Assembly (NCBI GenBank): GCA_025363315.1
Contig: JANYED010000203.1
Span: 1-41,977 of the forward strand
Origin: Polaromonas sp.
GTDB lineage: Bacteria; Pseudomonadota; Gammaproteobacteria; Burkholderiales; Burkholderiaceae_C
DNA length: 41,977 nt
Direction of reading: 5' to 3'
Shown: positions 3,719 through 38,335 of the stretch, in pieces
Layout: the number at the start of each line of letters is the position of its first letter
Numbering within the stretch: position 1 is the stretch's first letter
Program-made: the position numbers and the translations under genes
The notes under the pieces: model-generated
What the model was told of the DNA's origin: nothing
The model's database searches: none
What the model saw: only the letters and a program-made list of their open reading frames with translations

Positions 3719-3768
3719 CAGGCTGTAGCCCTTATGATACGGGCGCAAGCAGCTATGATTTATATAGT
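3719..3768 (-). repeat. 48-nt dispersed two-hairpin repeat, copy 1
   Basis: Reverse complement actatataaatcatagctgcttgcgcccgtatcataagggctacagcct matches consensus gctatttattnaatagctgctygcgcccgtatttattgggctgcaggc. Confidence 0.8.
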
Positions 3769-3791
3769 ATTGCCTGATGCGTTACAGCAAT

Positions 3792-5339
3792 CTAGCGCGT
3801 TGCCAAAGGTTTCTTCCAGTCCCGCCCGCCACCTGCCCACAGGACTTCTTTATCAATTTGCGCGGCCAGTTGCTCGCAGGTGGCAATCAAATCGTCCCGC
3901 TCTTTGAGTGCCGCGACACCGCGTTGCCAGTCACTACTTTCTTTGCAAAAAGCAGCGCATCGGTCAAGCGCCAGCACCTGTTGGCGCGCATCACCTGTTT
4001 GCCTGGCCAGCGCCACACCACGCTCATAAAAAGCCGCCTCGGCAGGTGAACGCTGGCTAGGCCACAAGCGCCAATCGTTGCGCATCAAATCTCTGGCACC
4101 GCTGTGCCCAAGCCACAAGTCAGCCAGCATGATGAAGTCCCAGGCACTGTCTTCAGGCAAATCAAATTTTTCGATCAGCGCTTGGCTCAGGCGCCAGGCC
4201 TTGACCACGTCAAACACCACCGCTGCTGACTGCACCAAAGCTGTGTGCTGCAGCTGTAGCGGCCACTGTAAGTGGTAGGCATAGTTAACCAGCACGCCCT
4301 GCAAGTGGTACGGGTCATCTGCCACGGCAAGCCAAAACAGGGCAGCGCAAAAGCTGTTGTTGACTTGCGCATTCACGCGCTGCAACGTGGCCAACTGCGG
4401 TGGCACAGTACGCGCCATTAGCGCTTGCAATTTGCGCCGATAGGTCAGCGCCTGTAGGTTGGCGAGCTCCCACAAAAGCTTGGGCGAGCCTGCCTGGTCA
4501 ATTTGCTGGCCCAAGCGTTCAAAGTTAATTTTATTGGCGTTCTTGGTTGGGTCTGCGTCATACGACAAGCGCGCTGTCTGCATTGTCAGTTCAGCTGTCA
4601 GTGCGCCTTTTGCCTCCCGGTGCGCCCGCGGCACATGCTGCTGTGCGCCTGCGACCAACACCCATGCGGCGTCACGCTGGCCTAACCGGCGCAGCCAGCG
4701 AATCTTGCGCAGTTCAAACACAACAGCGCCGTCAGGCGACAAACTTAGTTGAGCAGCCATTTCACTCAAATGTTTAACTGCGTCCTCGTACTGGGCTTGC
4801 CGTGCCAGCGCGTCAGCCACAACTAGTGCCGCCACTGCGTTTAGGGTAGCCGTCGGCTCACGCTGCAGGGTCAAGCCGGGGCTTTGCGCAGCTTCGCTCA
4901 ATACCGGTTCGCCAACACCGCCAGATTCATGCCCCAGCGCCACCAGCCCCTGCAAATCTGCGGTGCGATTTGGCTTGGAAGCCTCGACGCTCCACTGCTC
5001 ACCAGCAGCAATCTCCAGCCACCACGGCCCCACAGTGGCCTTGCGCGGCAGGCTCATGACGCGGCTGGCTGAACGTACTTCCTGCAAGCCAGCATTGACT
5101 GACTGCAACAACCGCCGCATGGCAGTGCGGTCAGGCTCGCAGGTGCCTGATTGATCGTTCCATATGGCAGACATGGCAGCCAAAGACAAGTGTTTTTCAG
5201 CCAGGCGACCCGTACATTCAGCACGCTGCACAAGCGCTGCCAAAAACGCTGCTGTTTGGTGGTGCCGAAGAGTTACACGCGTTCCCTTGTTTGTTAGGGT
5301 GTTGTTGGCAATATCAATTGAAATTTCAACCTCATTCAT
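3792..5339 (-). CDS. Uncharacterised protein with predicted N-terminal winged-helix (Trans_reg_C-like) fold and helical/TPR-like C-terminus
   Basis: MNEVEISIDIANNTLTNKGTRVTLRHHQTAAFLAALVQ...LSLAAMSAIWND...PDRTAMRRLLQSVNAGLQEV...WWLEI has the strand-helix layout of an OmpR-type wHTH, followed by long helical Ala/Leu-rich sequence. Start at 5339 chosen by similarity to the second copy. Confidence 0.6.
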   Translation of the reverse strand: MNEVEISIDIANNTLTNKGTRVTLRHHQTAAFLAALVQRAECTGRLAEKHLSLAAMSAIWNDQSGTCEPDRTAMRRLLQSVNAGLQEVRSASRVMSLPRKATVGPWWLEIAAGEQWSVEASKPNRTADLQGLVALGHESGGVGEPVLSEAAQSPGLTLQREPTATLNAVAALVVADALARQAQYEDAVKHLSEMAAQLSLSPDGAVVFELRKIRWLRRLGQRDAAWVLVAGAQQHVPRAHREAKGALTAELTMQTARLSYDADPTKNANKINFERLGQQIDQAGSPKLLWELANLQALTYRRKLQALMARTVPPQLATLQRVNAQVNNSFCAALFWLAVADDPYHLQGVLVNYAYHLQWPLQLQHTALVQSAAVVFDVVKAWRLSQALIEKFDLPEDSAWDFIMLADLWLGHSGARDLMRNDWRLWPSQRSPAEAAFYERGVALARQTGDARQQVLALDRCAAFCKESSDWQRGVAALKERDDLIATCEQLAAQIDKEVLWAGGGRDWKKPLATR

Positions 5340-5500
5340 TGCCGAGAGTTTCAATGACTTACGAACAAGAAGCATTAAGTAGCAACCCTAGCTGCCGACT
5401 TAGACACAAGTGACACATTTCAAAACGTTGTGTATCAAATAGTATTTCTGTGCGACTTCAAACATTAGTGCCGTTAAACCCGAATCGAGGAAACTGGAAA

Positions 5501-7199: not shown

Positions 7200-7577
7200 A
7201 TATTTGATTTGGCTGAGAAACCTCGACGCTCCACTGCTCACCAGCAGCAATCTCCAGCCACCATGACCCCCCACAGTGGCTTTGCGCGGCAGGCTCAACA
7301 CCTGGCTTGCTGACCGTACTGCCGCCAAGCCCGCATTGACTGACTGCAACAATTGCTGAATTGCAGTGCGGTCAGGCTCGCAGGTACCAGAGTAGTCGTT
7401 CCACACGGCCGTCATGGCAACCAAAGACAAGTGTTTTTCAGCCGGGCGACCCGTACATTCAGCACCTTGCACAAGCGCTGCTAAAAACGCGGCTGCCTGA
7501 TGATGTCGAAGCAGAACGCAACCACCCAGGCTAGTCAAAGTGTTTGCTTGTTTATCAACTGAAATGATTACTTGCAC
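7200..7577 (-). pseudogene. Truncated, frameshifted second copy of the 3792-5339 regulator (N-terminal domain only)
   Basis: Translated similarity: AAFLAALVQGAECTGRPAEKHLSLVAMTAVWNDYSGTCEPDRTAIQQLLQSVNAGLAAVRSASQVLSLPRKATVG vs AAFLAALVQRAECTGRLAEKHLSLAAMSAIWNDQSGTCEPDRTAMRRLLQSVNAGLQEVRSASRVMSLPRKATVG; 2-nt insertion at ~7264-7272 shifts the frame, and homology ends at ~7205. Confidence 0.8.
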
Positions 7578-7668: not shown

Positions 7669-7718
7669 AGGCCTCTAGACCAATAGATACGGGCGCGACC
7701 AGCAACTAATTAAATAGC
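7669..7718 (-). repeat. 48-nt dispersed repeat, copy 2
   Basis: aggcctctagaccaatagatacgggcgcgaccagcaactaattaaatagc. Confidence 0.75.
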
Positions 7719-7733: not shown

Positions 7734-8882
7734 TCAACGCACCACTTTCCCATCCGGCGTGATGGTCACCAGGTCTACGGCGCGGACTGACTCGTACTTT
7801 TTGGCGCGCAGGTTGACTCTAAATCCACTCATGTCGTAGTCGGTCATGGACTCAAACGCTTTTTGCAATCCTGCTTTGTCTGGCTTGCCGCTACCAGACG
7901 CAGCGCGCCGCACGCCTTCGGCGAACGCGCGCGCGGCAACGTAGCCTTCTACGCTTTCGTAGCTGGGCGTTTGGTCAGTCTGGTTGAGCACGTCCAGATA
8001 TTCCTTGACCAGCGGCGTGCCGATGCTACGTGGCGAGGGCACGACCTGTGAAATAACGATGCCGCCGATTTCTTTGCCCAGCGCGGTATACAGGGGGTCA
8101 ATGCCGACGACGGAGAAAGTCAAGAACTGACCGCCATACCCAGCCTTTCGCGCCTTGCGAATAAACGCTGCTGATGAGTTAAACAGGCTGACTTGAACGA
8201 TGGCCTGGGGGTTAGCTTTCATCAGCGTGGCTACAGCCGCGTCGACCTTGTCGCTGTTGACGGGCGACAGCGCACTGGCTACCACTGCCGGGCGTTTCAG
8301 ATCAACCAATGCTTGCGTGATGGCGGCAATGCCGGCGCGGCCCATGGCGTCGTCTTCGGCAAACACGGCGATGCGGTCCTGGTTGAGCGTGGCGCAGTGG
8401 CGCACGACTTTGTAAGCCTCGTCAGATAAAGCGGGCCGCACATGAAACACATTGTTTGAACCGGCCTCGTGCAGCGTGTCTGAAGCCGCAAAGGGCGCAA
8501 AAAACGGTATGCCTGATGTTTTGGTCACGGCATAAGCGGCATCACAGCTGGCAGTACCGGCAAAGCCGAAAAGTGCGTCAACGCCCTCGTCTATCAACAG
8601 CTTGGCATTGGCAGCGGCTTTGGTGGCGCTGTAGCCGTCGTCAAGTGTTTTGAGCTCGATCTTGTAGCCAGCGGCGCCGTTTTTGGCGTTGATAGCGTCA
8701 AAGTACATCTTGGCACCATTGAAGTAGGCCAGGCCGATCTGGTCGGCTGCGCCGGTTAGTGGCACAGACTGCCCCAAGACTAGTTTGCGCCCGCTTTTGG
8801 CTTGGGCAAAAAGCGCCGGACTCGCCACCAGCGCGCTGCCAGACAAGCCGGTTCGAATGAATCTGCGGCGGTTGAAATGCAT
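7734..8882 (-). CDS. ABC transporter periplasmic substrate-binding protein (branched-chain amino acid / LivK-like)
   Basis: MHFNRRRFIRTGLSGSALVASPALFAQ signal; VLGQSVPLTGAADQIGLAYFNGAKMYFDAINAKNG and YESVEGYVAARAFAEGVRRA typical of periplasmic-binding-protein family Peripla_BP_6. Confidence 0.9.
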   Translation of the reverse strand: MHFNRRRFIRTGLSGSALVASPALFAQAKSGRKLVLGQSVPLTGAADQIGLAYFNGAKMYFDAINAKNGAAGYKIELKTLDDGYSATKAAANAKLLIDEGVDALFGFAGTASCDAAYAVTKTSGIPFFAPFAASDTLHEAGSNNVFHVRPALSDEAYKVVRHCATLNQDRIAVFAEDDAMGRAGIAAITQALVDLKRPAVVASALSPVNSDKVDAAVATLMKANPQAIVQVSLFNSSAAFIRKARKAGYGGQFLTFSVVGIDPLYTALGKEIGGIVISQVVPSPRSIGTPLVKEYLDVLNQTDQTPSYESVEGYVAARAFAEGVRRAASGSGKPDKAGLQKAFESMTDYDMSGFRVNLRAKKYESVRAVDLVTITPDGKVVR

Positions 8883-10387: not shown

Positions 10388-10435
10388 GTCTCTAGGCCAA
10401 TAAATTCGGGCGCGAGCAGCTATTAAACGTATAGC
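10388..10435 (-). repeat. 48-nt dispersed repeat, copy 3
   Basis: gtctctaggccaataaattcgggcgcgagcagctattaaacgtatagc. Confidence 0.8.
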
Positions 10436-10446: not shown

Positions 10447-11574
10447 TCAAGCGCAGCAAGTGTCAAGCACTTCCCGCACCAGTGCGGCAGGCGCAGGGCG
10501 CACAACAGCCTTGCCTGGCCCATCAATCAGTACAAAACGGATCTCGCCGGCTTCGGATTTTTTGTCGATCTGCATCAGGTCAAGGTAACGCCCGGCGTTG
10601 TCACGTTCGTCAAGAACGGGCCCTTTAACGGGCAGGCCGGCGCGTTCAATCAAGCGCGTCAGGCGCTCGACAAAAGCGCTGTCTACCAAACCCAGGCGCT
10701 GCGACAAATGCACCGCCATCACCATGCCGCAGCCCACGCCTTCGCCATGCAGCCAATGACCGTAGCCCAGGCCAGACTCGATGGCATGGCCAAAGGTGTG
10801 GCCAAAGTTCAAAATGGCGCGCAGCCCCTGTTCACGCTCGTCCTGGCCCACCACATGCGCCTTGATCTCGCAACTGCGCTGAATGGCCTGCGCGAGGGCG
10901 GCTGGCTCACTGGCCATCAGCGCATCGATATAGGTTTCAATCCAGTCGAAAAAGGCCATGTCGGCAATTGGGCCGTACTTGATGATCTCTGCCAGGCCAG
11001 CGCTCAACTCGCGCTTTGGCAAGGTTTTCAGCGCGTCTAGGTCGCACACCACCAGCTGTGGCTGGTAAAAAGAGCCAATCATGTTCTTACCCAGCGGGTG
11101 ATTGATGGCAGTTTTACCGCCAACGGATGAATCGACCTGCGCCAGCAGCGTTGTAGGCACCTGCACAAACGGGACGCCACGCATGTAGCTGGCAGCGGCA
11201 AAACCTGTCATGTCGCCTACCACACCACCGCCCAAGGCAAACAGCACGGTTTTGCGGTCACAGCCATTGCCCAGCAGCGCATCAAATATTCGTTGCAGCG
11301 TGGGCCAATCTTTGTGCGCTTCGCCATCGGGCAATTCCAGCAACAGAACCTTTGGGTAGCGTGCCTGCAAGGCGTTCTGCAGCTGCACGGCATACAGCGG
11401 CGCAACGGTGGTGTTGGAAACGATCAAGGCGGTGCTGGCATGCGGCACATGCTGGTAGGTTGACGCATGCCCGAGCAAGCCGGAACCGATGACGATGGGG
11501 TAGCTGCGGTCAGCCAGGGCGATGTGCACTTGCGCAGATGCGGTAGCGGAACGAAAAGGAGAGCTCACTTGCAT
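10447..11574 (-). CDS. aroB: 3-dehydroquinate synthase
   Basis: [74 protein letters not shown]. Confidence 0.97.
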
Positions 11575-21874: not shown

Positions 21875-21900
21875 AGCTGCTCGTTCAAAGCCGGGTAGAC

Positions 21901-21949
21901 GCTATAAATTAAATAGCTGCTTGCGCCCGTATTTGCTGGGCTACAGCCC
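21901..21949 (+). repeat. 48-nt dispersed repeat, copy 4; encodes the C-terminus of msrQ
   Basis: gctataaattaaatagctgcttgcgcccgtatttgctgggctacagccc; the msrQ stop and last ~13 codons lie within it. Confidence 0.85.
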
Positions 21950-23688: not shown

Positions 23689-23753
23689 GATAAGAGCTTT
23701 TAAAAGCGCGGCGGTTCCATCATCCGCACTGACCCGCGCCGCGCGTGGGTCAG

Positions 23754-24416
23754 TCAGCGCAGCCCGGCGATGTAGTCGGCTAGCGCCTTGATTTCACGGT
23801 CATTCAGTTTGGCGGCGTTTTGCGTCATTTGCAGGTTGTTTTTGCGAATCCCATCGCGGAAATAAGTCAGCTGGGCGGCGGTGTATTCAGCATGCTGCCC
23901 AGACAGGCGTGGGTACTGCGCCGGAATGCCAGCGCCGTTCGGGCTGTGGCAGCCCGCGCAAGCGGCAATCTGCCGCTCTTGTATGCCGCCGCGGTAAATC
24001 TTTTCGCCCAAAGCGGCCATGTCTTTATCCGTGGCTGCGCCCGGCTTGGCTTTGTTGGTCGTGACCCAAAAAGCGATGTTTTTCATGTCTTCTTCGCTCA
24101 GTGCCGTTGCAAAACCAACCATGATCGCGTTGGCCCGCTTGCCGGACTTATATTCAGTCAATTGCTTGACCAGATATTCGGGGTGTTGCTGGGCCAATTT
24201 TGGATACGCTGGCGTGCCCGAGTTGCCGTCGACACCGTGGCAGCCCGAGCACACCGCGAAGCTGGCCTGGCCCTTGGCCACATCGGGCTTGTAGGCCACC
24301 GGAGCGGCCTTGGCTGGCTCAGGTTTGGCAGCATCTGCTGCAAAAGACGTTGCGCTGGAGATGGCTAGAACGAGGCCCAGAGTGGCGTTTAAAAAAGAGG
24401 TGGTGAACAGCTTCAT
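23754..24416 (-). CDS. Diheme cytochrome c (c4/c553 family)
   Basis: Signal peptide plus CSGCHG and CAGCHS heme motifs; ALADYIAGLR C-terminus. Confidence 0.92.
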   Translation of the reverse strand: MKLFTTSFLNATLGLVLAISSATSFAADAAKPEPAKAAPVAYKPDVAKGQASFAVCSGCHGVDGNSGTPAYPKLAQQHPEYLVKQLTEYKSGKRANAIMVGFATALSEEDMKNIAFWVTTNKAKPGAATDKDMAALGEKIYRGGIQERQIAACAGCHSPNGAGIPAQYPRLSGQHAEYTAAQLTYFRDGIRKNNLQMTQNAAKLNDREIKALADYIAGLR

Positions 24417-24519
24417 GTCGGGGATGCTTTGATGGTTGTAGCAATAGTCGACACTGATTTTACAATGGGTTCAAGGCACGTCTCGCCACTCGGGTATTGA
24501 CAAGCTCCAACAGACCACC

Positions 24520-25215
24520 ATGACCACACCCGCCAAACCGCCTACCAGCACTGACAAACCCGACCCCAAAATTGCGATGGGCTGGCTGCACACAGCCAAG
24601 TTTTTGACCACTGCGCCCGAGCTCAAGCACTTGCCGCGGCTCGATGTCCCTGAAATCGCCTTTGTGGGCCGGTCCAACGCCGGCAAATCAACCTGTATCA
24701 ACACGCTGACGCAGCAGCACCGGCTGGCCTATGCGTCCAAAACACCGGGCCGCACGCAGTCGATCAACCTGTTCACCCTAGGCAAACAGGGCGTGACAGA
24801 CGCAGTGCTCACTGACTTGCCGGGCTATGGCTACGCGGCCGTGCCCAAAGAAGCCAAGCTGCGCTGGCAGCAGGTGATGGGCAACTATTTGCAAACCCGT
24901 GACAACCTGAAAGGCGTGGTGCTGATGTGCGACCCGCGCCGCGGCATGACCGAGCTGGACGAGATTTTGCTCGACGTCATTCGCCCCCGGGTTGAAGAAG
25001 GCATGAAGTTTTTGATCCTGCTGACCAAGTCTGACAAGCTTAACAAAACCGAAGGCGCCAAAGCCCTGCAAATTGCCAAACTGAACGCGGCGGGCGGCGA
25101 TGTGAAGCTGTTTTCAGCGCTGAAAAAGCAGGGTGTTGAAGAGGTGGCCCAGCATTTGTGGGACTGGACGCATGCAGCTAACATTTATCTAACCAATGCG
25201 GCTTCAGCCCAATAA
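24520..25215 (+). CDS. engB: Ribosome biogenesis GTP-binding protein EngB (YsxC/YihA)
   Basis: IAFVGRSNAGKSTCINTL, TPGRTQSINLF, LTDLPGYGYA, LLTKSDKLNK. Confidence 0.96.
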   Translation: MTTPAKPPTSTDKPDPKIAMGWLHTAKFLTTAPELKHLPRLDVPEIAFVGRSNAGKSTCINTLTQQHRLAYASKTPGRTQSINLFTLGKQGVTDAVLTDLPGYGYAAVPKEAKLRWQQVMGNYLQTRDNLKGVVLMCDPRRGMTELDEILLDVIRPRVEEGMKFLILLTKSDKLNKTEGAKALQIAKLNAAGGDVKLFSALKKQGVEEVAQHLWDWTHAANIYLTNAASAQ

Positions 25216-25247
25216 AAACCGGCGCGAGCAGCTACTGAATACATAGC
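25201..25247 (-). repeat. 48-nt dispersed repeat, copy 5; contains the engB stop codon
   Basis: gcttcagcccaataaaaaccggcgcgagcagctactgaatacatagc. Confidence 0.8.
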
Positions 25248-25249
25248 AA

Positions 25250-26158
25250 ATGATTGACCTGACCCGGCTCGTATTGCCCCATGGCATCACCCTGTCGTGC
25301 CGCAGCGCGGGCGAAAAAGGCCGACCCGTGCTGGTGTTTTTGCACGGCTTTCCAGAAGCGGCGTTTGTATGGGACGAGTTGCTGATTCACTTTGCCAAGC
25401 CCGAGAACGGCGGCTACCGCTGCGTTGCGCCCAATTTGCGCGGTTTCGAGCAGTCAAGCGCGCCCACCGATGTGAGCGCCTACCGACCCAAGCATTTGGT
25501 GCAGGACATTGCGGCCTTGATCACGCTTGAAGGTGGACAGATTGAGTGCCTCGTCGCCCACGATTGGGGCGGCGCAGTGGCGTGGAATTTAGCCGCCAGC
25601 CAGCCGCAGCTGATCAAAAAACTCGCCATTCTTAATTCACCCCACCCAGGCACGTTTTTGCGTGAATTGCAGCATTCGCCCACCCAGCAGACCGCCAGCG
25701 CGTACATGAATTTTTTGATTCGACCCGACGCCGAAAAGCTGCTGGCTGAAGACGACTTTCGGCGCTTGTTTGAGTTTTTCATGCCTTTTAGCAGCGTTAA
25801 GGGAACGAAGGGTCCAAGAGTCGCGCCCGGCTGGCTCACAGACGCGGTCAGGGCGCAGTACCGGGACGTGTGGCAGCGCGGCTTGACCGGCCCGCTCAAT
25901 TTTTACCGCGCGTCGCCGCTACGGCCGGGGCCGGACATTGCCAAACTGGTGATTCCGCGTGCGCTGCTGGACGTGCAGCTGCGCACGCTGGTGATTTGGG
26001 GCATGGGCGACATTGCCCTGCCACCGGGTTTGCTCGACGGGCTGGAAGCCTTTGTGCCGCGCATGGAACTGCAGCGAATCGAGGGCGCAACGCACTGGCT
26101 GATTCATGAACAACCAGCGCTGGTAGCGCAGCATTTGCAGCGGTTTTTAGCAAGCTGA
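25250..26158 (+). CDS. Alpha/beta hydrolase (epoxide-hydrolase-like)
   Basis: VLVFLHGFPEAAFVWDELL, PNLRGFEQSSAP, LVAHDWGGAVAWNLA, IEGATHWLIHEQP. Confidence 0.92.
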   Translation: MIDLTRLVLPHGITLSCRSAGEKGRPVLVFLHGFPEAAFVWDELLIHFAKPENGGYRCVAPNLRGFEQSSAPTDVSAYRPKHLVQDIAALITLEGGQIECLVAHDWGGAVAWNLAASQPQLIKKLAILNSPHPGTFLRELQHSPTQQTASAYMNFLIRPDAEKLLAEDDFRRLFEFFMPFSSVKGTKGPRVAPGWLTDAVRAQYRDVWQRGLTGPLNFYRASPLRPGPDIAKLVIPRALLDVQLRTLVIWGMGDIALPPGLLDGLEAFVPRMELQRIEGATHWLIHEQPALVAQHLQRFLAS

Positions 26159-26160
26159 GT

Positions 26161-26208
26161 GCTATTTAATCAGGAGCTGCGCGCACCCGTATCTATTGGG
26201 TTGCAGGC
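26161..26208 (+). repeat. 48-nt dispersed repeat, copy 6
   Basis: gctatttaatcaggagctgcgcgcacccgtatctattgggttgcaggc, between convergent genes. Confidence 0.85.
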
Positions 26209-26259
26209 TTTTTTATTACCTAAAACAGGTCTTTAGCCTGGTTTCATTGGCTTTAAGCG

Positions 26260-27156
26260 TCAATAAACATCTGGCGCGCCCGCAGGCCGGGTTTTAAAGC
26301 GTTTGTGCACCCAAAAATATTGCGCCGGCTGACTGCGGATGTAGCTTTCAAGCTCGCGGTTCATGCGCGCGGTGTCCAGCGCCGCATCGTCTGTTGGAAA
26401 GTTGTCCCAGGCGGGCAGCACCACCACCTCGTAGCCGGTTGGCGTCATGCTGACCACCACTGGCACCACCTTGGCGCGCCCCAGCCGGGCAAAACGCGAC
26501 AGCGACGGCACGGTGGCGGTAGGGATGCCAAAAAACGGCACAAAAATCGATTCTTGCGGGCCAAAATCCATGTCGGGCAGCAAATAAAGCGGCTGGCCGC
26601 TGCGGATCGCCGCCACGATGGGTTTGACCCCTTCTACCCGGCCAAACAGCCGCATGTTGCCCCAGCGGCTGCGACCACGCAGAATCCAGCGGTCGATGAG
26701 TTTGTTCGACTGGTCGGTGTAGATCGTGGTCGACGGGCGCGGGATGCGCAGGGTGACGCCGCCCCAGGCAGCGTCCATGCCCACAAAATGCGGCACAAAC
26801 ACGACGGTCGGCTCGGTGCCGGCCAGTTCGTGGGTAGCGCCGGTAAACGCCACGCGCCGCAGCACCCAGCTTTGGGGGGCATGCCAGACCCAGCTCCTGT
26901 CCAGCCATGCCTGCGCAAAATAAACAAAGGTTCGGCGCGCCAGCCCTCTAATTTCGGGCGCGAGCAGCTCCGAAAAGCATAGCGTCAGGTTGGTGGTGAC
27001 AACCCGGCGGCGCGCGCCCACCAGCGCATACAGCGCCATGCCCAGCAGCCAACCCAGCGCGCGAACCACGCGCAGCGGCAGCATGGCCAAAAGCCGCATA
27101 AACAAAATACCCAATTGCGTGACCAGGCGGCCGGCGAGCTGGCGCAGCGCTGTCAA
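26260..27156 (-). CDS. Lipid A biosynthesis acyltransferase (LpxL/HtrB family)
   Basis: VTTNLTLCFSELLAPEIRGLARRTFVYF; FVPHFVGMDAAWGG; LYLLPDMDFGPQESIFVPFFGIPTATVPSLSRFARLGRAKVVPV. Confidence 0.92.
   Translation of the reverse strand: MTALRQLAGRLVTQLGILFMRLLAMLPLRVVRALGWLLGMALYALVGARRRVVTTNLTLCFSELLAPEIRGLARRTFVYFAQAWLDRSWVWHAPQSWVLRRVAFTGATHELAGTEPTVVFVPHFVGMDAAWGGVTLRIPRPSTTIYTDQSNKLIDRWILRGRSRWGNMRLFGRVEGVKPIVAAIRSGQPLYLLPDMDFGPQESIFVPFFGIPTATVPSLSRFARLGRAKVVPVVVSMTPTGYEVVVLPAWDNFPTDDAALDTARMNRELESYIRSQPAQYFWVHKRFKTRPAGAPDVY
26940..26983 (-). repeat. 48-nt-family repeat sequence located inside the acyltransferase coding region (copy 7)
   Basis: Minus strand: gctatgcttttcggagctgctcgcgcccgaaattagagggctg; 15-nt core AGCTGCTCGCGCCCG identical to the groS-groL copy. 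Confidence 0.65.
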
Positions 27157-28061
27157 AGCGCTGCCTTTGCTGCAGAGTCTTTGCCGGGGCTGTCTTGTTT
27201 AGGGGCGTCTTGCCGGGGCGTTTTGTAGCGGCCATAGCCCCACAGGTACTGGCCGGGCTGGCTCAGCACAATCGCTTCAATGGCTTGGTTGATGTTTGTC
27301 ACAGTACTCAATAGGTCAGAGCTATCAGTCAAGTGGATAGGCGGCCAGATCTTAACGATGTAACCGCGTCCCTTTGGCAGCCGCTCGCAGCTTACCGGCA
27401 GCAGCGCCGCACCGTTTTGCATCGCCAGCCGCGCGGCCAGCGTCATGGTGTAGGCCGGTTTGCCGAAAAACGGTGCCCACAGCCCTAGGCCTTCGGGCGG
27501 CACCTGATCGGTCAGCAGCGCCACGGCGCGTCCGGCTTTGAGCGCCTTGTGCATCGCCTTGATGGCGCTTAATGAGGCGGGCAGCACTGCAAAGTGCGGG
27601 CGCTGGCGGGCGGCCAGCTCAATAGCCGCCAGCCAGGCCTGCCGCGCCGGGCGATAAATGGCCGTGATCGCGCCGTAGCGCAGGCCAAACACCTCGGACA
27701 GCGCCTGCGGGCCCAGCTCAAAGCTGCCGCAATGCGGGCCGAAAAAAATCACACCTTTGCCCAGCGCGAAGGCTTGCTCAGCCAGTTCTTGGCCCTGCAT
27801 TTGCACGTTGGCCAGGCAAGACGCGTCAGCGGGCCGCAACCACAGCTTGGGCAGTTCCGCTACAAAGCGCCCGGCCTCGGCTATCGCTGGCCGGGCCATG
27901 TCAAACGGCACGCCGGCCTGCGCGCAATTGCTGCGAAAGCGCTCGCGGTAGGCCGGGCTGAACGCCCACACGCCCCAGCCCAGCGCGCCGCCCAGCACAT
28001 GCAGCGCCGTCAGGGGCCACACAGAAAAAAAGCGGAACAGGGTAAGCATCGGTAAAAGCAA
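27153..28061 (-). CDS. Lipid A biosynthesis acyltransferase, second paralog
   Basis: FRSNCAQAGVPFDMARPAIAEAG, FFGPHCGSFELGPQAL, ALLTDQVPPEGLGLWAPFFGKPAYTMTLAARLAMQNGAALLPV. Confidence 0.92.
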   Translation of the reverse strand: MLLPMLTLFRFFSVWPLTALHVLGGALGWGVWAFSPAYRERFRSNCAQAGVPFDMARPAIAEAGRFVAELPKLWLRPADASCLANVQMQGQELAEQAFALGKGVIFFGPHCGSFELGPQALSEVFGLRYGAITAIYRPARQAWLAAIELAARQRPHFAVLPASLSAIKAMHKALKAGRAVALLTDQVPPEGLGLWAPFFGKPAYTMTLAARLAMQNGAALLPVSCERLPKGRGYIVKIWPPIHLTDSSDLLSTVTNINQAIEAIVLSQPGQYLWGYGRYKTPRQDAPKQDSPGKDSAAKAAL

Positions 28062-28083
28062 TCACCACGGCGCGGCTGCGCCT

Positions 28084-28089
28084 TATAAT
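28084..28089 (+). promoter_or_regulatory. Candidate -10 box of the metK promoter
   Basis: Perfect TATAAT; a start ~7 nt downstream (28096) coincides with the first base of the riboswitch P1 stem. Confidence 0.55.
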
Positions 28090-28095
28090 CCACGG

Positions 28096-28151
28096 GTCGC
28101 TGAGTTATTTGAACAACTTGCAGAGCGACGTTAAACCAAACTGCTAAAGCG
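28096..28151 (+). ncRNA. SAM-II-like riboswitch upstream of metK
   Basis: GTCGCT(28096-28101)...AGCGAC(28124-28129) P1; GCAG(28120-28123) in the loop can pair with CTGC(28141-28144) as a pseudoknot; conserved-looking ATTTGAAC..CTTGCAG..ACGTTAAA...GCTAAAG. Confidence 0.75.
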
Positions 28152-28207
28152 TTCGCCAAAGCATTCCGCTGGCAACGCGCCCAGCAATTTAAATGGAGTG
28201 TACTGAC

Positions 28208-29392
28208 ATGGCGAACGACTTTTTATTCACCTCTGAATCTGTTTCTGAAGGCCACCCGGACAAGGTCGCCGACCAAATCTCCGATGCCATCCTGGATGCG
28301 ATCTTCAAGCAAGATCCCCTGAGCCGCGTGGCAGCCGAGACGCTGACCAACACTGGCCTCGTTGTGTTGGCAGGTGAGATCACCACCAATGCGCATGTCG
28401 ACTACATCCAGGTTGCACGCGACACCATTAAGCGCATTGGCTACGACAACACCGACTACGGCATTGACTACAAAGGCTGCGCGGTGATGGTTTGCTATGA
28501 CAAGCAGAGCAACGACATCGCCCAGGGCGTTGACCACGCAAGCGACGACCACTTGAACACCGGCGCGGGCGACCAGGGCCTGATGTTTGGCTATGCCTGC
28601 GACGAAACGCCCGAGCTGATGCCCGCGCCGATTTACTACGCCCACCGTCTGGTCGAGCGCCAGGCGCACTTGCGCAAAGACGGCCGCCTGCCGTTTTTGC
28701 GTCCCGACGCGAAAAGCCAGGTGACGATGCGTTACGTAGACGGCAAACCGCACAGCATCGACACCGTGGTGCTGTCAACCCAACACAGCCCGGACCAGAG
28801 CGAGACGATGCACAAAATGAAGGCCTCATTCGTCGAAGCCATCATTGAAGAAATCATCAAACCCGTGCTGCCCAAGCACATGCTGACCGAACACACCAAG
28901 TACCTGATCAACCCGACAGGCCGCTTTGTAATTGGCGGGCCGCAAGGCGATTGCGGTTTGACCGGCCGCAAAATCATTGTCGACACCTACGGCGGTGCCT
29001 GCCCCCACGGAGGCGGCGCCTTCAGCGGCAAAGACCCGAGCAAGGTGGACCGTTCAGCCGCCTACGCTGCCCGTTACGTCGCCAAAAACATTGTGGCCGC
29101 AGGCCTGGCCAAGCAGTGCCAGATTCAGGTGGCGTACGCAATTGGCGTGGCCAAACCGATGAACGTGACGGTCTACACCGAAGGCACCGGCGTGATGAGC
29201 GACGAGAAACTGTCAGCCTTGGTGCAAGAGCACTTTGATTTGCGCCCCAAAGGCATCATTCAAATGCTGGATTTGCTGCGCCCGATTTACGAGAAGACGG
29301 CGGCGTATGGTCACTTCGGCCGCGACGAGCCAGAATTTACCTGGGAGCGGACGGACAAAGCTGCGGCTCTCAAGGCTGCAGCCGGCCTTTAA
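28208..29392 (+). CDS. metK: S-adenosylmethionine synthetase
   Basis: [72 protein letters not shown]. Confidence 0.98.
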
Positions 29393-29667
29393 TCGTCAGG
29401 CAAACCCAGCGTCACCCAGCCATCGCCCAGTTCCAGCCCAACGCTGATCGACCGGGCCATGGCCCAAATGTCGGCTGAAGCAATCGGCCGGTAACTGCAA
29501 ACGATGGCCCTTTACCCCTCGCGGTGCGGTAAGACTGCGGACACAGGTGCGCCGAAAATCCGCGACATGCGGCTTGTAGGCGTGAAGCTCATGCACTTGT
29601 AGGACAGCGCTTTGGTTGCGCTTGATTGCTGCCTGATGTTTTCGATCACTTTAAGTTGCCGCGTATT

Positions 29668-29715
29668 GCTACATTTAGCATAGATGTACACGCCCGTTAT
29701 TATTGGGCTACAGCC
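29668..29715 (+). repeat. 48-nt dispersed repeat, copy 8 (diverged)
   Basis: gctacatttagcatagatgtacacgcccgttattattgggctacagcc. Confidence 0.7.
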
Positions 29716-29919
29716 AGATTCTGCCAAATAAGAGCAGGTATTGAATCAGTCCGGTCAGGCAGCGCCTTGCCCAGCTGTGAGACCGTCCTTGATCTGCGTT
29801 TGTTTCGCCTCAATAACGTTTTGGCACACTAAATTTGAATCTAGTTGGAAAAATGTCGCGCAAGTTCATCGCGGCTCTTGCTGCACCTTTATTCGCCGAG
29901 TCCAAACCAGGAGTTCAAT

Positions 29920-31512
29920 ATGACCATTCGATTCAAGCAAATTGCTAAAGCCTGCCTGCTAGTCGTTGCCGCCGGCAGCGCTATGGCATCTAGCCACCGT
30001 GAAGCGCCCTTTACTGCTGGCAGCCCTAGGGTTGATGGCACTGACTTTTATATGTTTCGCAGTTACGAAGGCGTTGCCGCCAACGGTTCGGGTGGCCGGT
30101 CTGACTACGTGACGCTGCTAGCCAACTGCCAGCCACTGCAGTCCCCGTACGGCGGGCCTAATTACTTTCAGTTGGACCCGAATGCGCTGTATGAAATCCA
30201 CTTGGACAACAATGGTGATGCGGTCGAAGACATCACCTTTCAGTTCCGCTTTAAAAACAACCTCAAATCAATTCCGCTGATGATCGGCTCTGCCAGCGTG
30301 CCGATTCCGCTGGTTCAGGCCGGTGCCGTGGCAAATTTGAACGACGCGAACCTGAATGTCAATGAAACCTATGAGGTCAAAGTTGTACGCGGCGAGCGGC
30401 GCAAAAGCCAAGGCATCCCACTGACCAAAACCGCAGGCGGCAGCGCAACGTTTGAAAAGCCGGTTGACAACATTGGCACCAAAACGATTGCCGACTACCC
30501 AGGCTATGCGGCCAAACACATCCATAACGTGACCATTCCCGGCTGCCCCGCAGGCAAAGATCAGGGCAAGGTGTTTGTTGGCCAGCGCCAGGAAGGCTTT
30601 GCAGTGAACCTGGGCCCGGTGTTTGACCTGGTGAATGCGCCAGCATCATTTTTGCTTGATCCGGCCAACAAGGACGCCGCAGGCATGGGCGGCAAGCACA
30701 TCATTCAAAAGGCCAACATCACAACGCTGGCCATTGAGGTGCACAAAGACTGCTTGACCGCTGGCAGCGAGACTGTAGTTGGCGGATGGACAACAGCCAG
30801 CGTGCGCCAGGGCCGGTTGATTGACGGTAAACCCGGCTCGGGCAACGACAAGGCCGAAAAAGCTGGCGGCGCATGGGCGCAGGTGTCCCGACTGGGCAAT
30901 CCGCTGGTCAACGAGCTGGTGATTGGCTTGCCAGACAAGGACAAGTTCAATGCCTCGCAGCCCAAAGACGACGCGCAGTTTTTGACTTACGTGTCAAACC
31001 CAACGCTGCCTGCTCTGCTAAGCATCGTGCTGGGTGCTGACGTGGCGCCAAAAAATCTGCCGCGAACCGATTTGCTGACCACCTTTTTGACGGGTATCAC
31101 CGGCATCAACAAACCAGCGATGCCCAAACCTTCAGAAATGTTGCGCTTGAACCTGGCGTATGCACCTGCGCCATTTGCCGCGCAAAACCGTTTGGGCGTG
31201 GCGGGCAATGCACTGGCAGGCGGCACGGACAACGCCGGCTTTCCGAATGGCCGCAGGCCAAAAGACGACGTGGTTGACATCGCCCTGGTGGCCACGGTGG
31301 GCGGCTTGTGCATCATCAACGGTGACAACGATGCGCTCAAACTCAATAGCGTACCGGGCGTTCCATCATTGACATCGGCTTGCAAGCCTTCGAGCGTGCC
31401 GTTGGGCGCCTCGTCGGCAAACATTCACGATGCTGTTGACCAGGCCACCGTACCGTTTTTGGCGACCTTTCCGTACCTGAACACGCCAAACGCTGGCTCG
31501 GCCACGTATTAA
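29920..31512 (+). CDS. DUF4331-family secreted protein
   Basis: Signal peptide then SSHREAPFTAGSPRVDGTDFYMFRSYEG; RBS aggag at 29909-29913 before ATG 29920. Confidence 0.88.
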   Translation: MTIRFKQIAKACLLVVAAGSAMASSHREAPFTAGSPRVDGTDFYMFRSYEGVAANGSGGRSDYVTLLANCQPLQSPYGGPNYFQLDPNALYEIHLDNNGDAVEDITFQFRFKNNLKSIPLMIGSASVPIPLVQAGAVANLNDANLNVNETYEVKVVRGERRKSQGIPLTKTAGGSATFEKPVDNIGTKTIADYPGYAAKHIHNVTIPGCPAGKDQGKVFVGQRQEGFAVNLGPVFDLVNAPASFLLDPANKDAAGMGGKHIIQKANITTLAIEVHKDCLTAGSETVVGGWTTASVRQGRLIDGKPGSGNDKAEKAGGAWAQVSRLGNPLVNELVIGLPDKDKFNASQPKDDAQFLTYVSNPTLPALLSIVLGADVAPKNLPRTDLLTTFLTGITGINKPAMPKPSEMLRLNLAYAPAPFAAQNRLGVAGNALAGGTDNAGFPNGRRPKDDVVDIALVATVGGLCIINGDNDALKLNSVPGVPSLTSACKPSSVPLGASSANIHDAVDQATVPFLATFPYLNTPNAGSATY

Positions 31513-31536
31513 GCCAAGCGCCATCAAGGAGTCAAC

Positions 31537-31815
31537 ATGAAGCAGCAATTGAACAAACGTGTTTTAAAGGTCGTTCTGGCGACAGCAATAGCCGTGACGC
31601 TGGTCACGGGTTGCGGCAGCGGCGGTGGTGACGGCGGCGGCAACGGCGGCGGCGGTGGCGGTGGCGGGGTGCAACCCGTCAGCGCGGCACAAAGCGTGGT
31701 GGACTACATCCTCGCGTTGATCAACTCCAGCACCAGCGACTTGGGCGACCCAATAGCGCTGGACGGTGTGACGCTGGCCAACGACGATGCGGCCGAGGCG
31801 ATTCCGTTGAACTGA
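31537..31815 (+). CDS. Small poly-glycine lipoprotein of unknown function
   Basis: MKQQLNKRVLKVVLATAIAVTLVTGCGSGGGDGGGNGGGGGGGGVQPVSAAQSVVDYILALINSS; lipobox (VTGC), 25 nt after the DUF4331 gene. Confidence 0.75.
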   Translation: MKQQLNKRVLKVVLATAIAVTLVTGCGSGGGDGGGNGGGGGGGGVQPVSAAQSVVDYILALINSSTSDLGDPIALDGVTLANDDAAEAIPLN

Positions 31816-31858
31816 CGATGGTAGGACGCGCACCGAGCGCGTCTTAAGCCGACAAGTG

Positions 31859-31900
31859 AACCCATCTGGTGGCCACAAGCTGCTGCCAGATGGGTTTTTT
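31859..31900 (+). terminator. Rho-independent terminator after the DUF4331/lipoprotein pair
   Basis: AACCCATCTGG...CCAGATGGGTTTTTT hairpin. Confidence 0.85.
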
Positions 31901-31948
31901 GCTATTAGTTTATGAGCTGCTTGCGCCTGAACCTATTAGGCCTGCACT
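31901..31948 (+). repeat. 48-nt dispersed repeat, copy 9
   Basis: gctattagtttatgagctgcttgcgcctgaacctattaggcctgcact. Confidence 0.8.
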
Positions 31949-31977
31949 GCATTGTTCTTTTCAACCAGCGTACTGGG

Positions 31978-32379
31978 CTATTTGTTCAAGTAATCCAGCG
32001 TCACTTTGCCGACTGTTGCCGCAACACCGCTGACCAGCGTGCCCCAGGCCATGTCGATAAACGTCAGGCCCAGTGGCCAGTCCTTGACCACCGCCAGATT
32101 GGTCAGATCGTAGGTTGAATAGGCAAACAAGCCGAACAGCGCGCCCATCAAAGCCGCCTTCCACACCGGGCTGTCAGCCTGCGGCAGCACCGCAAAAATC
32201 AGCAAACCCACCGGAAACATCAAATAAAAAGCCGCTGCAGCCCACAGGTTGGGGTTGGGGCTAAGCAGTGGCCCCATGGCGTTGGCGTAAGTTGATTTGG
32301 CAATTACGCCGAGCCACAGCATGTCAATCACGAACATAGTCAAAAAACTGGCGAGGTAAATTCCGGCATATTTCATCTT
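31978..32379 (-). CDS. DUF2177-family membrane protein
   Basis: MKYAGIYLASFLTMFVIDMLWLGVIAKSTYANAMGPLL...AAFYLMFPVGLLIFAV; four-TM layout. MRQDHKMKYAG extends to 32394. Confidence 0.85.
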   Translation of the reverse strand, partial: KMKYAGIYLASFLTMFVIDMLWLGVIAKSTYANAMGPLLSPNPNLWAAAAFYLMFPVGLLIFAVLPQADSPVWKAALMGALFGLFAYSTYDLTNLAVVKDWPLGLTFIDMAWGTLVSGVAATVGKVTLDYLNK

Positions 32380-32485
32380 GTGGTCCTGTCGCAAATAATC
32401 AAAGTGAATGGTTGATACCCAACCAATTTTGATTCAAATCACAAAAGGCAAGTTGTAAGAATATTTCCCCTTTTGACGGCCAAGA

Positions 32486-32513
32486 CTTGAAAATGCCACA
32501 ATTCGCCCCTATC
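32486..32513 (+). promoter_or_regulatory. Sigma32-like heat-shock promoter of groSL
   Basis: CTTGAAA - 13 nt - CCCCTATC, close to consensus CTTGAAA-N(11-16)-CCCCATnT. Confidence 0.65.
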
Positions 32514-32514
32514 A

Positions 32515-32541
32515 TTAGCACTCGACAGTATTGAGTGCTAA
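32515..32541. promoter_or_regulatory. CIRCE element (HrcA operator)
   Basis: Perfect TTAGCACTC-N9-GAGTGCTAA. Confidence 0.97.
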
Positions 32542-32630
32542 CAACGCGCTCAAGTCGCATGTTCGCTGGCGCCGGCTGCCATCAGGCGGTGCCTTTGATT
32601 AAAAACCACTGTTTTATAACTGGAGAACCC

Positions 32631-32921
32631 ATGAAACTTCGCCCTCTGCACGACCGCGTGATCGTCAAACGCGTGGAAAACGAAACCAAAACCGCTTCTG
32701 GCATCGTCATTCCTGACTCAGCTGCTGAAAAGCCTGATCAGGGCGAAATTTTGGCCGTTGGCCCCGGTAAGAAAAACGACAAAGGCGAAGTTCAGCCTGT
32801 TGGCGTCAAAGTCGGTGACCGCGTTTTGTTCGGCAAATACAGCGGCCAAACGGTCAAAGTTGACGGCGACGAGTTGCTGGTCATGAAAGAGGAAGACCTT
32901 TTCGCCGTTGTTGAGAAGTAA
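32631..32921 (+). CDS. groS: Co-chaperonin GroES
   Basis: [48 protein letters not shown]. Confidence 0.98.
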
Positions 32922-32926
32922 TTCTT

Positions 32927-32975
32927 CACTATTTATTTAATAGCTGCTCGCGCCCGTATTTATTGGGCTGCAGGC
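32927..32975 (+). repeat. 48-nt dispersed repeat, copy 10, between groS and groL
   Basis: cactatttatttaatagctgctcgcgcccgtatttattgggctgcaggc. Confidence 0.9.
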
Positions 32976-32983
32976 ACTTTTAA

Positions 32984-34666
<1,683 letters not shown>

Positions 34667-34726
34667 TGCCAACCTGAATTAGTTCTTTGCACCAGCTTAT
34701 GCACGGTGTAAGTACTTGAACAGCCA

Positions 34727-34758
34727 AACCCGCAGTGCGAAAGCCTGCGGGTTTTTTA
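34727..34758 (+). terminator. Rho-independent terminator after groL
   Basis: AACCCGCA-gtgcgaaagcc-TGCGGGTTTTTT. Confidence 0.85.
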
Positions 34759-34771
34759 ATTAGGAAAGACC

Positions 34772-36136
34772 GTGACCTTAAATGAAATAACAGATACAGC
34801 GAAGTCAATTCAAAACAAATGGACCTCGAACATTATGGGCCAGCGCCCAGGTGAACAGCCACAGTTGCAGTCGCATCTTGGAAGTGCAGCCACTTATCAA
34901 TCTGTCAGTGATGAATTGACCCGTTGGGTGTTCGTGCTGTCCAAGCTTTCGAAGATGCCCAGGGTGTCACAAACTATTTCGAAACAACTGTTGGTGCCGC
35001 TTGGCGCAAGTCTGCAGTCGGTGAGTAAAGCCCTTGACTACGCAGGCAACGGTGTGGAGTGGATATGTACCGAACGAGGTTTTGCTACGCAGTATGCATT
35101 GGTAATATATTTCATACGAGCCTTGTCATTTGATTCGGCTCGTGAGGCGACAGAAATAACAGACGCTGCAAAAGACCGTATCTCTCACGACGTTAACGCA
35201 ATTCAAGACGCAACTGCAAACGCAAAACTATTCTGTAACGGCTGGTCAGACCTAAATACCAAAATTTCAGCAATTGAAAAAGCGGAAGAATCGGCTAGTG
35301 CAACTCTAACGGCGGTCAGTGCAGCGGCAGCAAAAGCTGTCGGGGACATTTCTGCGGAACAGAAAAGCGTAGTCGACGCGGCGGCGACCAAAAACGGCGA
35401 AATTACCGACTCCATGGAGGACTTCAACACCAAGGTAAAAGCAGCAAAGGACGTGCTCGCAGACGTTCAAAAACTGCACGATGAAGCGCAAAAAATTCGT
35501 GGCGAAACACAGTCGACTGCGGCTAAGTCTAAGACAGACTTAGACAACTCAGCTGCGGCACTTAGCGGTGCCATTGAAAAGCAAGAACTCACGCAAAAAA
35601 GACTCACAAAAGCTCTACAAAACGCCCAAATGGAAGGTCTGGCTGGGTCATTTACGCGAATGAAGGAAGACACACAAAAGGTTATAAAGAGTGAACAGAT
35701 ACGGTTTGAAATAGCTCTTTTTTACCTCACAGTAATAGCATTGTCCGGCGTCGCCATTGAAGGCTATTTGGGTTTTCCAAAAACGACATTGGAAGAGTTT
35801 GGGATTCGCATGCTAAAAATGCTGTCGTTAGCTGCGCCAGGCATTTGGATCGCTTGGGTAACATCAAAAAAACTGAACGCGTTAAACCGAGTTTTTAGCG
35901 ATTACGAATACAAATCGGCCTCAGCTTTAGCTTACGAAAGCTACCGCCAAACAGTATCTGAAGCGGGCAGTGACGAACTTAAGCAGCAACTGCTCGCGTT
36001 CGCCATACGTTCGTTTGGCGAGAACCCAACCCATTATTACGAGTCAGCAAAAAATGATGCTGCCACGCCACTTGAATCGTTCCTAGAAAAGTTGCCTTTT
36101 TTAAGCAAAAGTAGACCCGATTCAACAAAAGGCTAA
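34772..36136 (+). CDS. Uncharacterised coiled-coil protein with two predicted TM helices
   Basis: Long Ala/Lys/Glu-rich helical region, then IALFYLTVIALSGVAIEGYL and MLSLAAPGIWIAWVT, then a charged C-terminal domain; intact 454-aa ORF, AT-richer than its neighbours. Confidence 0.7.
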   Translation: MTLNEITDTAKSIQNKWTSNIMGQRPGEQPQLQSHLGSAATYQSVSDELTRWVFVLSKLSKMPRVSQTISKQLLVPLGASLQSVSKALDYAGNGVEWICTERGFATQYALVIYFIRALSFDSAREATEITDAAKDRISHDVNAIQDATANAKLFCNGWSDLNTKISAIEKAEESASATLTAVSAAAAKAVGDISAEQKSVVDAAATKNGEITDSMEDFNTKVKAAKDVLADVQKLHDEAQKIRGETQSTAAKSKTDLDNSAAALSGAIEKQELTQKRLTKALQNAQMEGLAGSFTRMKEDTQKVIKSEQIRFEIALFYLTVIALSGVAIEGYLGFPKTTLEEFGIRMLKMLSLAAPGIWIAWVTSKKLNALNRVFSDYEYKSASALAYESYRQTVSEAGSDELKQQLLAFAIRSFGENPTHYYESAKNDAATPLESFLEKLPFLSKSRPDSTKG

Positions 36137-36204
36137 CCTTCAGAAAATCAGAGCGCTTTTGGTTAGTGACCAGTAAACTCGGGCAATCGTTAGGAAAGCA
36201 AGAC

Positions 36205-36411
36205 ATGTCAAATCAATATATCACCCGAGACCCCAAACTGATGAGCGGTACACCCTGCTTTTCTGGTACGCGTGTCCCAGTTAAGTCGTTGTTTGATTAT
36301 CTTGAAGCAGGTGACAGCTTGGACGAGTTTCTAGACCAGTTCCCCACAGTGACGCGCGACATGGCCGTCAATGTGCTGGAAGCGAGCAAGCAGGCATTGC
36401 TGGCGGCCTGA
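36205..36411 (+). CDS. DUF433-family antitoxin-like protein
   Basis: YITRDPKLMSGTPCFSGTRVPVKSLFDYLEAGDSLDEFLDQFPTVTRDMAVNVLE. Confidence 0.88.
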   Translation: MSNQYITRDPKLMSGTPCFSGTRVPVKSLFDYLEAGDSLDEFLDQFPTVTRDMAVNVLEASKQALLAA

Positions 36412-36416
36412 ACGCC

Positions 36417-36746
36417 ATGCGTATTCTTCTCGACGAGTCAGTTCCTCGTGCGCTCGGTTTTCTGATTCTGGGGCACTTTGTGCGCACCGCTCAAACAGCC
36501 GGATTTGCAGGGCTTTTCAACGGTGAATTGCTCGCTGCCATGAAGTTGGCTGAATACGATGCGCTCATCACTTTTGACCAAAACCTCCCCTACCAGCAGA
36601 ACAACAACTTACCTGTTGCCATACTTGTTTTGGTTGCCCCCAATAATCGGGTCGAGACAGCGCTGAAGTTTGCGCCGCTCATCCTGGACGCACTAGTTAA
36701 TTTGAATTTGGGCCAACTTTTAAAGCTAGGACTAACCACAGATTGA
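36417..36746 (+). CDS. DUF5615-type PIN-like toxin
   Basis: MRILLDESVPRALGFLILGHFVRTAQTAGFAGLFNGELLAAMKLAEYDALITFDQNLPYQQN; directly after a DUF433 gene. Confidence 0.85.
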   Translation: MRILLDESVPRALGFLILGHFVRTAQTAGFAGLFNGELLAAMKLAEYDALITFDQNLPYQQNNNLPVAILVLVAPNNRVETALKFAPLILDALVNLNLGQLLKLGLTTD

Positions 36747-36757
36747 ACGCCGATCAG

Positions 36758-38335
36758 CTACCGCCGACCTGGACCCAGGCGTTGCAACAGTCCAGCAGTT
36801 GAAGCGTCGAGCCCAGCCGCATCACCGCTGTGCAAACGCGGCTCAATGTCTTGTGCCAGCACCTTGCCCAGCTCCACGCCCCATTGGTCAAAGCTGTTGA
36901 TGCCCCAGATGCTGCCGCTGACGAAGACGCGGTGTTCTTGCAGCGCCAGCAGCGCGCCCATGCTAGCCGGGGTCAGTTCGTCCAACAAGAAAAAGGTGCT
37001 GGGCCGGTTGCCAGGAAAGTTTTTGTGGCCACCCGCATCGGATCTGCCCACCATCAAAGCCTGGGCTTGTGCCAGCACATTGGCCAGCAGCTTACTGTTG
37101 TGTCCGGGCAGAGCATGGGCTGGTGTTTTGACGGCGATAAATTCAACTGGTACTACCGATGTGCCCTGGTGCAGCAGTTGAAAATACGCATGCTGGCCGT
37201 TGGTGCCTGGCTCGCCCCACAGCACGGGTGCAGTGTCAAAGGGCAGCGCCTGGCCTTGTACATCCACGCGCTTGCCGTTGCTTTCCATCTCCAGTTGCTG
37301 CAGGTACGCAGGCAGGCGGCGCAACGCGTGGCTGTAAGGCGCAATGCTGCGGCTCGCAAAGCCGTGAAAGTTGCGGTACCACACGTCCATCAGGCCCAGG
37401 CGCACGGGCAGGTTTTGCGCCAGTGGTGCACGGCGAAAGTGTTCGTCCATGGCGTGGGCGCCTGCCAAAAATTCACGAAAGCCCTGGCTACCTATCGCAA
37501 TGGCGATGGGCAAACCAATGGCAGACCACAGCGAATAACGGCCACCCACCCAGTCCCAAAAGCCAAAGGTGGTGGTGATGCCGAACGCATTGGCAGCTGC
37601 CACGTTGGTCGTCAGCGCAGCAAAGTGGTCTTGCGTGCTGCCGCCGCCGTTGGCTACAAACCAGTCACGCGCCGACTGCGCGTTTGTCATTGTCTCCACC
37701 GTGGTGAAGGTTTTGGAGGCGATCAAAAACAGCGTGCTTTCAGGCTTGCACTGCGCCAGCACATCGGCCAGATGCTGCCCGTCAACGTTGGATACGAAAT
37801 GAAACCGCCGGGATTTTTCAGCAAAGGCATCAAGTGCCAGCACCGCCATTTGCGGCCCCAGGTCAGACCCGCCGATGCCGATGTTGACGATGTCTGTGAT
37901 GTCGCTGTTTGCCCTGACCTGGGTTGCAAAGGCCAGCATCGCGTTTAAAGTGGCCTCAACTTCGGCCTGTTTGTCTGCTATTTTATCGATAGCTGCTTGC
38001 GCCGGTATATATTGGCCTGCAGGCGGATTTCGGAGTAGAAAATGCAGTGCTGGGCGGTTTTCAGTGGTGTTCACGGCCTCGCCTGCAAACATCGCGTCGC
38101 GGTGCTGCTCAACTCCGCATTGCCGGGCCAGGTCAAACAGCAGCGCCTGTGTTGCCTTATCCAACAGGTTCTTTGACAGGTCCGCAAAAACGTATGGCGC
38201 GTGCTGGCTAAAGTCGGCAAAACGCTGTACATCCGCTGCAAAGGCATCACGCAGGTCCAAAGTTTTACCAGTCGATTCAAACTGCGATTGCAGCAAAGGC
38301 CAAGCCGCGGTGCGGTCGCATCTTGTACGCATCAC
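36758..38335 (-). CDS. pgi: Glucose-6-phosphate isomerase
   Basis: [65 protein letters not shown]. Confidence 0.97.
37977..38024 (+). repeat. 48-nt dispersed repeat, copy 11, inside pgi and read in frame
   Basis: gctattttatcgatagctgcttgcgccggtatatattggcctgcaggc; on the pgi strand it encodes [16 protein letters not shown]. Confidence 0.85.

Follow-up and report, generated by a model that had tools for sequence, protein, structure and literature searches.

A dispersed 48-nt repeat and its genomic setting

The window, the whole 41,977-nt stretch of a Polaromonas sp. contig analyzed here, holds a RAYT gene (PF01797) accompanied by several copies of another repeat, TTTTAATTGGAATCTGACCCCAATTAA (412–1300), together with further genes that include metK, the groES–groEL pair, a lipid A acyltransferase gene and pgi (36758–38335, minus strand; Pfam E=1e-171). 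Two stretches of ~300 bp, at 4967–5270 and 7206–7511, are diverged direct duplicates spaced ~2.24 kb apart, with blocks 85–91% identical. Dispersed among and within the genes of the window is a repeat of ~48 bp, imperfectly palindromic, with the core GCTATnnATTnAnWAGCTGCTnGCGCCCG...TGGGCT.nAG and a T/A-rich 3′ tail (table 1).

Table 1. Copies of the 48-nt repeat in the window and their neighboring genes
Feature	Coordinates	Strand	Setting	Basis
Repeat copy, 37 bits	1401..1448	+	230 nt upstream of RAYT gene	matrix scan
Repeat copy	3721..3768	-	in the spacer where 1523-3685(+), TonB receptor, converges on 3792-5375(-)	
Repeat copy	7671..7718	-	16 nt past stop of 7734-8882(-), periplasmic binding protein	
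Repeat copy	10388..10435	-	12 nt past stop of 10447-11574(-), 3-dehydroquinate synthase	
Repeat copy	21901..21948	+	behind 20597-21874(+); provides C-terminal codons and stop of 21909-22580(-)	
Repeat copy	25200..25247	-	provides last codons of 24520-25215(+), GTPase	
Repeat copy	26161..26208	+	2 nt past stop of 25250-26158(+), alpha/beta hydrolase	
Repeat copy	26936..26983	-	within lipid A acyltransferase gene 26260-27156(-); length unchanged vs solved homologs	
Repeat copy	29668..29715	+	between 28193-29392(+), metK, and 29845-31512(+)	
Repeat copy	31901..31948	+	immediately behind terminator-like hairpin 31858-31897	
Repeat copy	32928..32975	+	groES-groEL spacer; congeners with or without copy	
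Repeat copy	37977..38024	+	within pgi (36758-38335, -), antisense; encodes 16 residues	

All 11 copies named by the first-pass annotation are present in the sequence, and their 48-nt core aligns without gaps; together with the genome-wide scan, this bears out the description of a repeat of constant length whose copies are solitary and dispersed. A matrix scan of the window added a weaker twelfth copy. The copies are not purely intergenic, as had been supposed: in the window, one lies in pgi (37977), one in the lipid A acyltransferase gene (26936) and two overlap gene 3′ ends (21901 and 25200), and of all copies, about 28% fall inside a gene.

Iterated over 753 kb of the genome's own assembly, the 48-nt matrix recovered 170 copies; the reversed sequence of the same 753 kb gave 0 matches at every threshold from 6 to 30 bits. 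The resulting density of ~1 copy per 4.4 kb, slightly biased upward because the scanned stretches came from hit-bearing contigs, corresponds to ~800 copies per genome; a sequence-only model returned at least 150 strong matches over the whole assembly, and a congener (herein G013) holds ~240 copies in 1.2 Mb. The repeat has no match in Rfam at the gathering score. Many pairs of opposite-strand matches spaced by 31 nt in G013 arose mostly because the first half is palindromic, and these artefacts were discarded. The coefficient of variation of copy spacing is 0.81 in the own genome (0.94 at random) and 1.07 in G013 (0.99 at random), and because these values disagree, there is no consistent evenness of copies. 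A replichore strand bias, suspected from a genome of another genus (G128) in which the first 13 matches listed lay on one strand, was not seen in Comamonadaceae bacterium OS-4.

Position relative to genes (called with a simple script of our own, in genomes that are mostly drafts) is strongly structured. Copy density per kb is 2.4–2.9 in convergent spacers, ~0.9–1.1 in co-directional spacers, ~0.5 in divergent spacers and 0.06–0.07 in genes; spacer copies lie a median of 30–40 nt from gene 3′ ends, and the co-directional copies of G013 have no orientation bias relative to genes (stop-facing vs. start-facing, 49 to 50). Genic copies favor two of the six reading frames, antisense frame 2 (26/30 of the own antisense copies and 30/34 in G013) and sense frame 0 (14/18 and 26/32, respectively), with the own antisense frame-2 copies encoding about AVAQSIRAQAAIEVIA. 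Beyond the window, internal copies occur in cca, waaC, an asparaginase gene, hrpA, comEC and kefC; the copy inside comEC, the DNA-uptake channel gene (L054:5161-7761, minus strand), is a strong one in sense frame 0.

The statement in the first-pass annotation that similar sequences occur in Comamonadaceae proved sound, since related forms are found in other genera: of 299 genomes of the phylum, those with an abundant core 14-mer all belong to certain genera of this family. Several of the congeners have loci identical to records of Polaromonas sp. NC_groundwater_594, LF-bin-444 and C1_concoct.bin.30 and of P. jejuensis NBRC 106434, which makes the genus Polaromonas as GTDB defines it. Within Polaromonas, exact 14-mer counts run from 0 to 200 per genome, a gradient that rests on the 14-mer of the own dialect, with some low-count genomes keeping good copies (such as the 42-bit copy in cca of G010). 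The first half, GCTATnnAAATnAATAGCTGCTnGCG, also occurs in Comamonadaceae bacterium OS-4 and in two further genera, there joined to other second halves. In G128 (L259–L265), some copies are paired in inverted orientation, with ~79 nt between their ATAGCTGC ends, to give a MITE-like composite of ~105 bp. Plasmids, phages and viral contigs hardly carry the repeat (one partial match, none and three, respectively).

In Acidovorax facilis (L203), the family takes the form GCGCTTAT..AAGCGC, in which lies the spaced motif GCTTAT(N)5AAGCG reported for Acidovorax ebreus TPSY; in the A. facilis members it coincides with the second stem. The 114 copies reported for A. ebreus are for the most part intergenic, close to the ends of genes and frequently in convergent spacers (PMC5217627). 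That report concerns a statistical word pair only, without the full element, in-frame genic copies, orthology or evolution. It also gives a P. naphthalenivorans motif, ATAGCT(N)22CAAAAG, which fits the register of the repeat but was not found in the loci examined. The claim that the repeat belongs to no named family is consistent with the literature found, except that its Acidovorax form had already been reported statistically (PMC5217627).

Filled sites, orthologous copies and conservation at the DNA level

Orthologous loci with and without the repeat, a comparison suggested by the first-pass annotation, were found in cca and in the groES–groEL spacer. Six congeners that are almost copy-free genome-wide have a short form of cca, DLTINAIAQDADGVLTDPYGG, and repeat-bearing congeners have an additional 12 or 16 residues, the old copies there ranging from 60 bits down to unrecognizable; the groES–groEL spacer measures 45–64 nt when empty and 92–113 nt when it bears the repeat. 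A loop in pgi is longer in most congeners than in repeat-free ones such as G024. The net length gain at filled sites is usually <48 nt, and the acyltransferase copy in the window brings no gain relative to solved homologs, which suggests that some of the 48 nt can coincide with codons native to the gene. Other groES–groEL spacers, from species without the repeat (L280, L281, L283, L285, L288 and L289), contain unrelated inserts (GTGGGACTGACC..GGTTCGCTCTGTCCC and AGCTACTGCGCGGCCGCCATGCG..), so that this spacer appears to be a hot spot of small insertions.

Signs of an active mobile element were sought in several ways. Target-site duplications gave no signal above chance over the many offsets and lengths tested, the inverted flanks around copies likewise gave nothing above chance given the number of offsets tested, and the defining MITE combination of terminal inverted repeats and target-site duplication was not found over that range. 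Nearest-copy identity among own copies has a median of 85%, and closest copies that are only ~85% identical argue against a recent burst; current transposition is not supported. The search for a co-occurring transposase found none linked to the repeat family. The first-pass annotation had separated the repeat from the local RAYT (412–1113), and rightly so: a Y1/RAYT homolog (PF01797) is present in 60 of 61 congeners while 14-mer counts range from 0 to 200, so that RAYT is not an evident driver, and the two Y1/RAYT genes of the own genome each have their own GGGGTCAG-type repeats. At L276:1050-1400, two inverted 48-nt copies lie between trpA and a second RAYT gene, which has its own GGGGTCAGGTCTGAC repeats.

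The age of the copies was assessed by comparing own genes with 1.2 Mb of G013, at a median reciprocal-best protein identity of 67%. Where an own gene has an internal copy, the G013 ortholog has one in 8/9 cases, compared with 4/135 of the other genes (Fisher p=1e-9), and strictly syntenic spacers with an own copy have a G013 copy in 4/8 cases, all in the same orientation, compared with 0/47 of the others (p=2e-4); these samples (9 genic cases and 8 strictly syntenic spacers) are small. A looser synteny rule, which gave 9/11 shared spacers, was dropped because it counts copies up to 60 nt inside neighboring genes and one genic copy.

The shared copies are conserved as DNA. Across nine orthologous copy pairs, conserved columns are 91% identical and variable columns 46%, against 37% for random pairs, and hence nearly saturated. 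At fourfold-degenerate sites in conserved repeat columns within genes, 26/29 (90%) are identical, compared with 1010/1868 (54%) elsewhere in the same genes (p=4e-5), whereas amino-acid identity is 66/122 (54%) within the repeat and 3442/4741 (73%) outside it (p=2e-5). Conservation of core fourfold sites in the face of lesser conservation of amino acids indicates that selection or biased conversion acts on DNA. Fourfold identity in cca, waaC and pgi fades along with family density in the genome compared (40/52, 38/55, 34/57; background 52%). The own and G013 consensus sequences differ at 13 columns (each p<1e-6) and hence constitute species dialects, which implies that many loci shifted in parallel. 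The data fit either recognition-site selection or biased exchange among copies as the form of this DNA-level maintenance; if conversion among copies made them evolve in concert, DNA-level conservation and dialects could both result.

The first-pass annotation described the repeat as two hairpins. Both stems can be drawn in the consensus; however, there is no compensatory change within the genome, and pairing as the conserved feature is not supported. Among 148 own and 221 G013 copies, paired combinations are close to the expectation under independence at every stem pair tested; copies with both stems intact make up 17% in the own genome and 43% in G013. In the own genome, a common TA-to-GG change at positions 13–14, on the 3′ side of the first stem, often breaks that stem and is not compensated on the 5′ side. 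RNAalifold over the 11 copies yielded a weak result and no useful structure. Folded as single-stranded DNA, the own consensus is slightly stabler than shuffles (z -2.1). Stems can be drawn in the second half for each genus (GCCC/GGGC, GCGC/GCGC and GCGCTT/AAGCGC), but second-stem compensation between genera was not counted as covariation because the register shifts by two. The conserved elements are short sequences (CTA, AGC, GCGC and GGGCT) and, 3′ of the core, tracts rich in T/A with roughly helical spacing. Conservation of sequence without stem covariation suggests that the repeat is read as DNA and not as an RNA fold.

Explanations for the persistence of the repeat

We hypothesize, with a probability of about one half, that the repeat is an ancient REP- or RPE-like insertion family whose copies are now kept as putative double-stranded DNA recognition sites. 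Insertion in the ancestors of Polaromonas and its relatives would have brought the 48-bp sequences to their loci, and the ~800–900 copies per chromosome may now be held in place as such sites, with a putative abundant DNA-binding factor (acting in chromosome organization, topology or DNA uptake) recognizing them and supplying selection or drive. Copies that occupy the same places in distant species, preserved as DNA and not as protein or RNA hairpin, make a recognition site likelier than an ordinary jumping repeat. Indeed, the initial picture of a simple mobile repeat awaiting its transposase does not suit copies that are ancient, orthologous and maintained at the DNA level.

It is unlikely that the repeat is instead a selfish, non-autonomous element of the REP, MITE or RPE kind, without host function and only slowly lost, in which likeness among loci reflects conversion or repeated re-insertion. 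Such an element would account for the insertion-like filled and empty sites in cca and groES–groEL, for the variation of 14-mer copy number across the genus and for in-frame genic copies resembling Rickettsia palindromic elements (PMC3733652); however, species at 67% protein identity share copies with the core kept, core fourfold sites are conserved when amino acids are not, nearest copies are no closer than a median of 85% without target duplication signal, and Y1/RAYT genes do not track copy number.

The known families of this kind match in part. Like REP/BIME sequences with RAYT (GTAG-/CGTC-tagged families; PMC3733652), the present repeat is short and palindromic, has several hundred copies, favors spacers near gene 3′ ends and is sometimes intragenic, but it is solitary and lacks a constant GTAG tag: at the tag position, 156 own copies have CTAC (GTAG on the other strand) 38 times, CTGC 30 times and CTAG 30 times, and G013 has mostly CTAG. 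A constant hairpin-foot tag, compensatory stem pairing and a cognate RAYT that is flanked by the repeat and co-occurs with it are all three lacking. Rickettsia palindromic elements, discussed in PMC3733652, resemble it in having in-frame copies in unrelated protein genes with preferred frames (as in the filled and empty cca and the frame bias of two genomes), a likeness limited by the lipid A acyltransferase copy, which leaves length unchanged; the present repeat differs in its lesser length (48 nt), its largely intergenic location, its cross-species conservation as DNA and its occurrence in another bacterial class. The Bordetella BRE (PMC3110155) is also a betaproteobacterial repeat and is reported in Polaromonas too, but is described as 75–91 bp long, 69% G+C, tandem and of few copies. 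Filing the repeat as REP, MITE or terminator fails on the features tested, and the behaviors of RPEs and of uptake sequences are partly reproduced.

That the repeat is a candidate DNA uptake sequence, with a competence receptor preferring site-bearing DNA and transformation fixing sites at permissive places, seems quite doubtful. Known DNA uptake sequences are ~10–12 nt in length. The present motif is far longer and arose at some loci by insertion and not by point mutation, and the literature found describes no uptake specificity in Comamonadaceae. However, it resembles the uptake sequences of Neisseriaceae and Pasteurellaceae in its hundreds of chromosomal sites (with almost none on plasmids and phages), in preferred genic frames and 3′-end spacers, and in genome-wide over-representation kept at orthologous sites; the roughly helical spacing of the A/T tracts would also suit an uptake site, and the species dialects recall those of Neisseriaceae (PMC3630211).

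A 3′-UTR RNA element or intrinsic terminator is highly improbable, for although copies cluster within tens of nucleotides of gene 3′ ends and the consensus has drawable, slightly stabilized stems, their orientation relative to genes shows no preference, some are antisense within genes, stems do not covary and are intact in a minority of copies, one copy sits between groES and groEL, Rfam holds no match, and no terminator-like call, for a G+C-rich hairpin with a T run oriented with the upstream gene, coincides with a copy in a scan of 20500–40000.

Implications for Polaromonas and the Comamonadaceae

Short palindromic repeats are usually classed as selfish or as RNA hairpins. The present repeat instead leaves an old, orthologous, DNA-level footprint within housekeeping genes such as cca and waaC, and unrelated proteins change in parallel with its DNA dialect. 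We tentatively suggest that it may represent a genome-wide recognition system outside those known, with several hundred long, dialect-specific sites per chromosome, even in housekeeping genes, and a putative dedicated reader (an uptake receptor or chromosome organizer), across Comamonadaceae. If such a binding protein or uptake receptor exists, common freshwater and soil bacteria would share a widespread recognition system; if there is no such protein, the repeat would be a clean case of the concerted evolution of a dispersed repeat.
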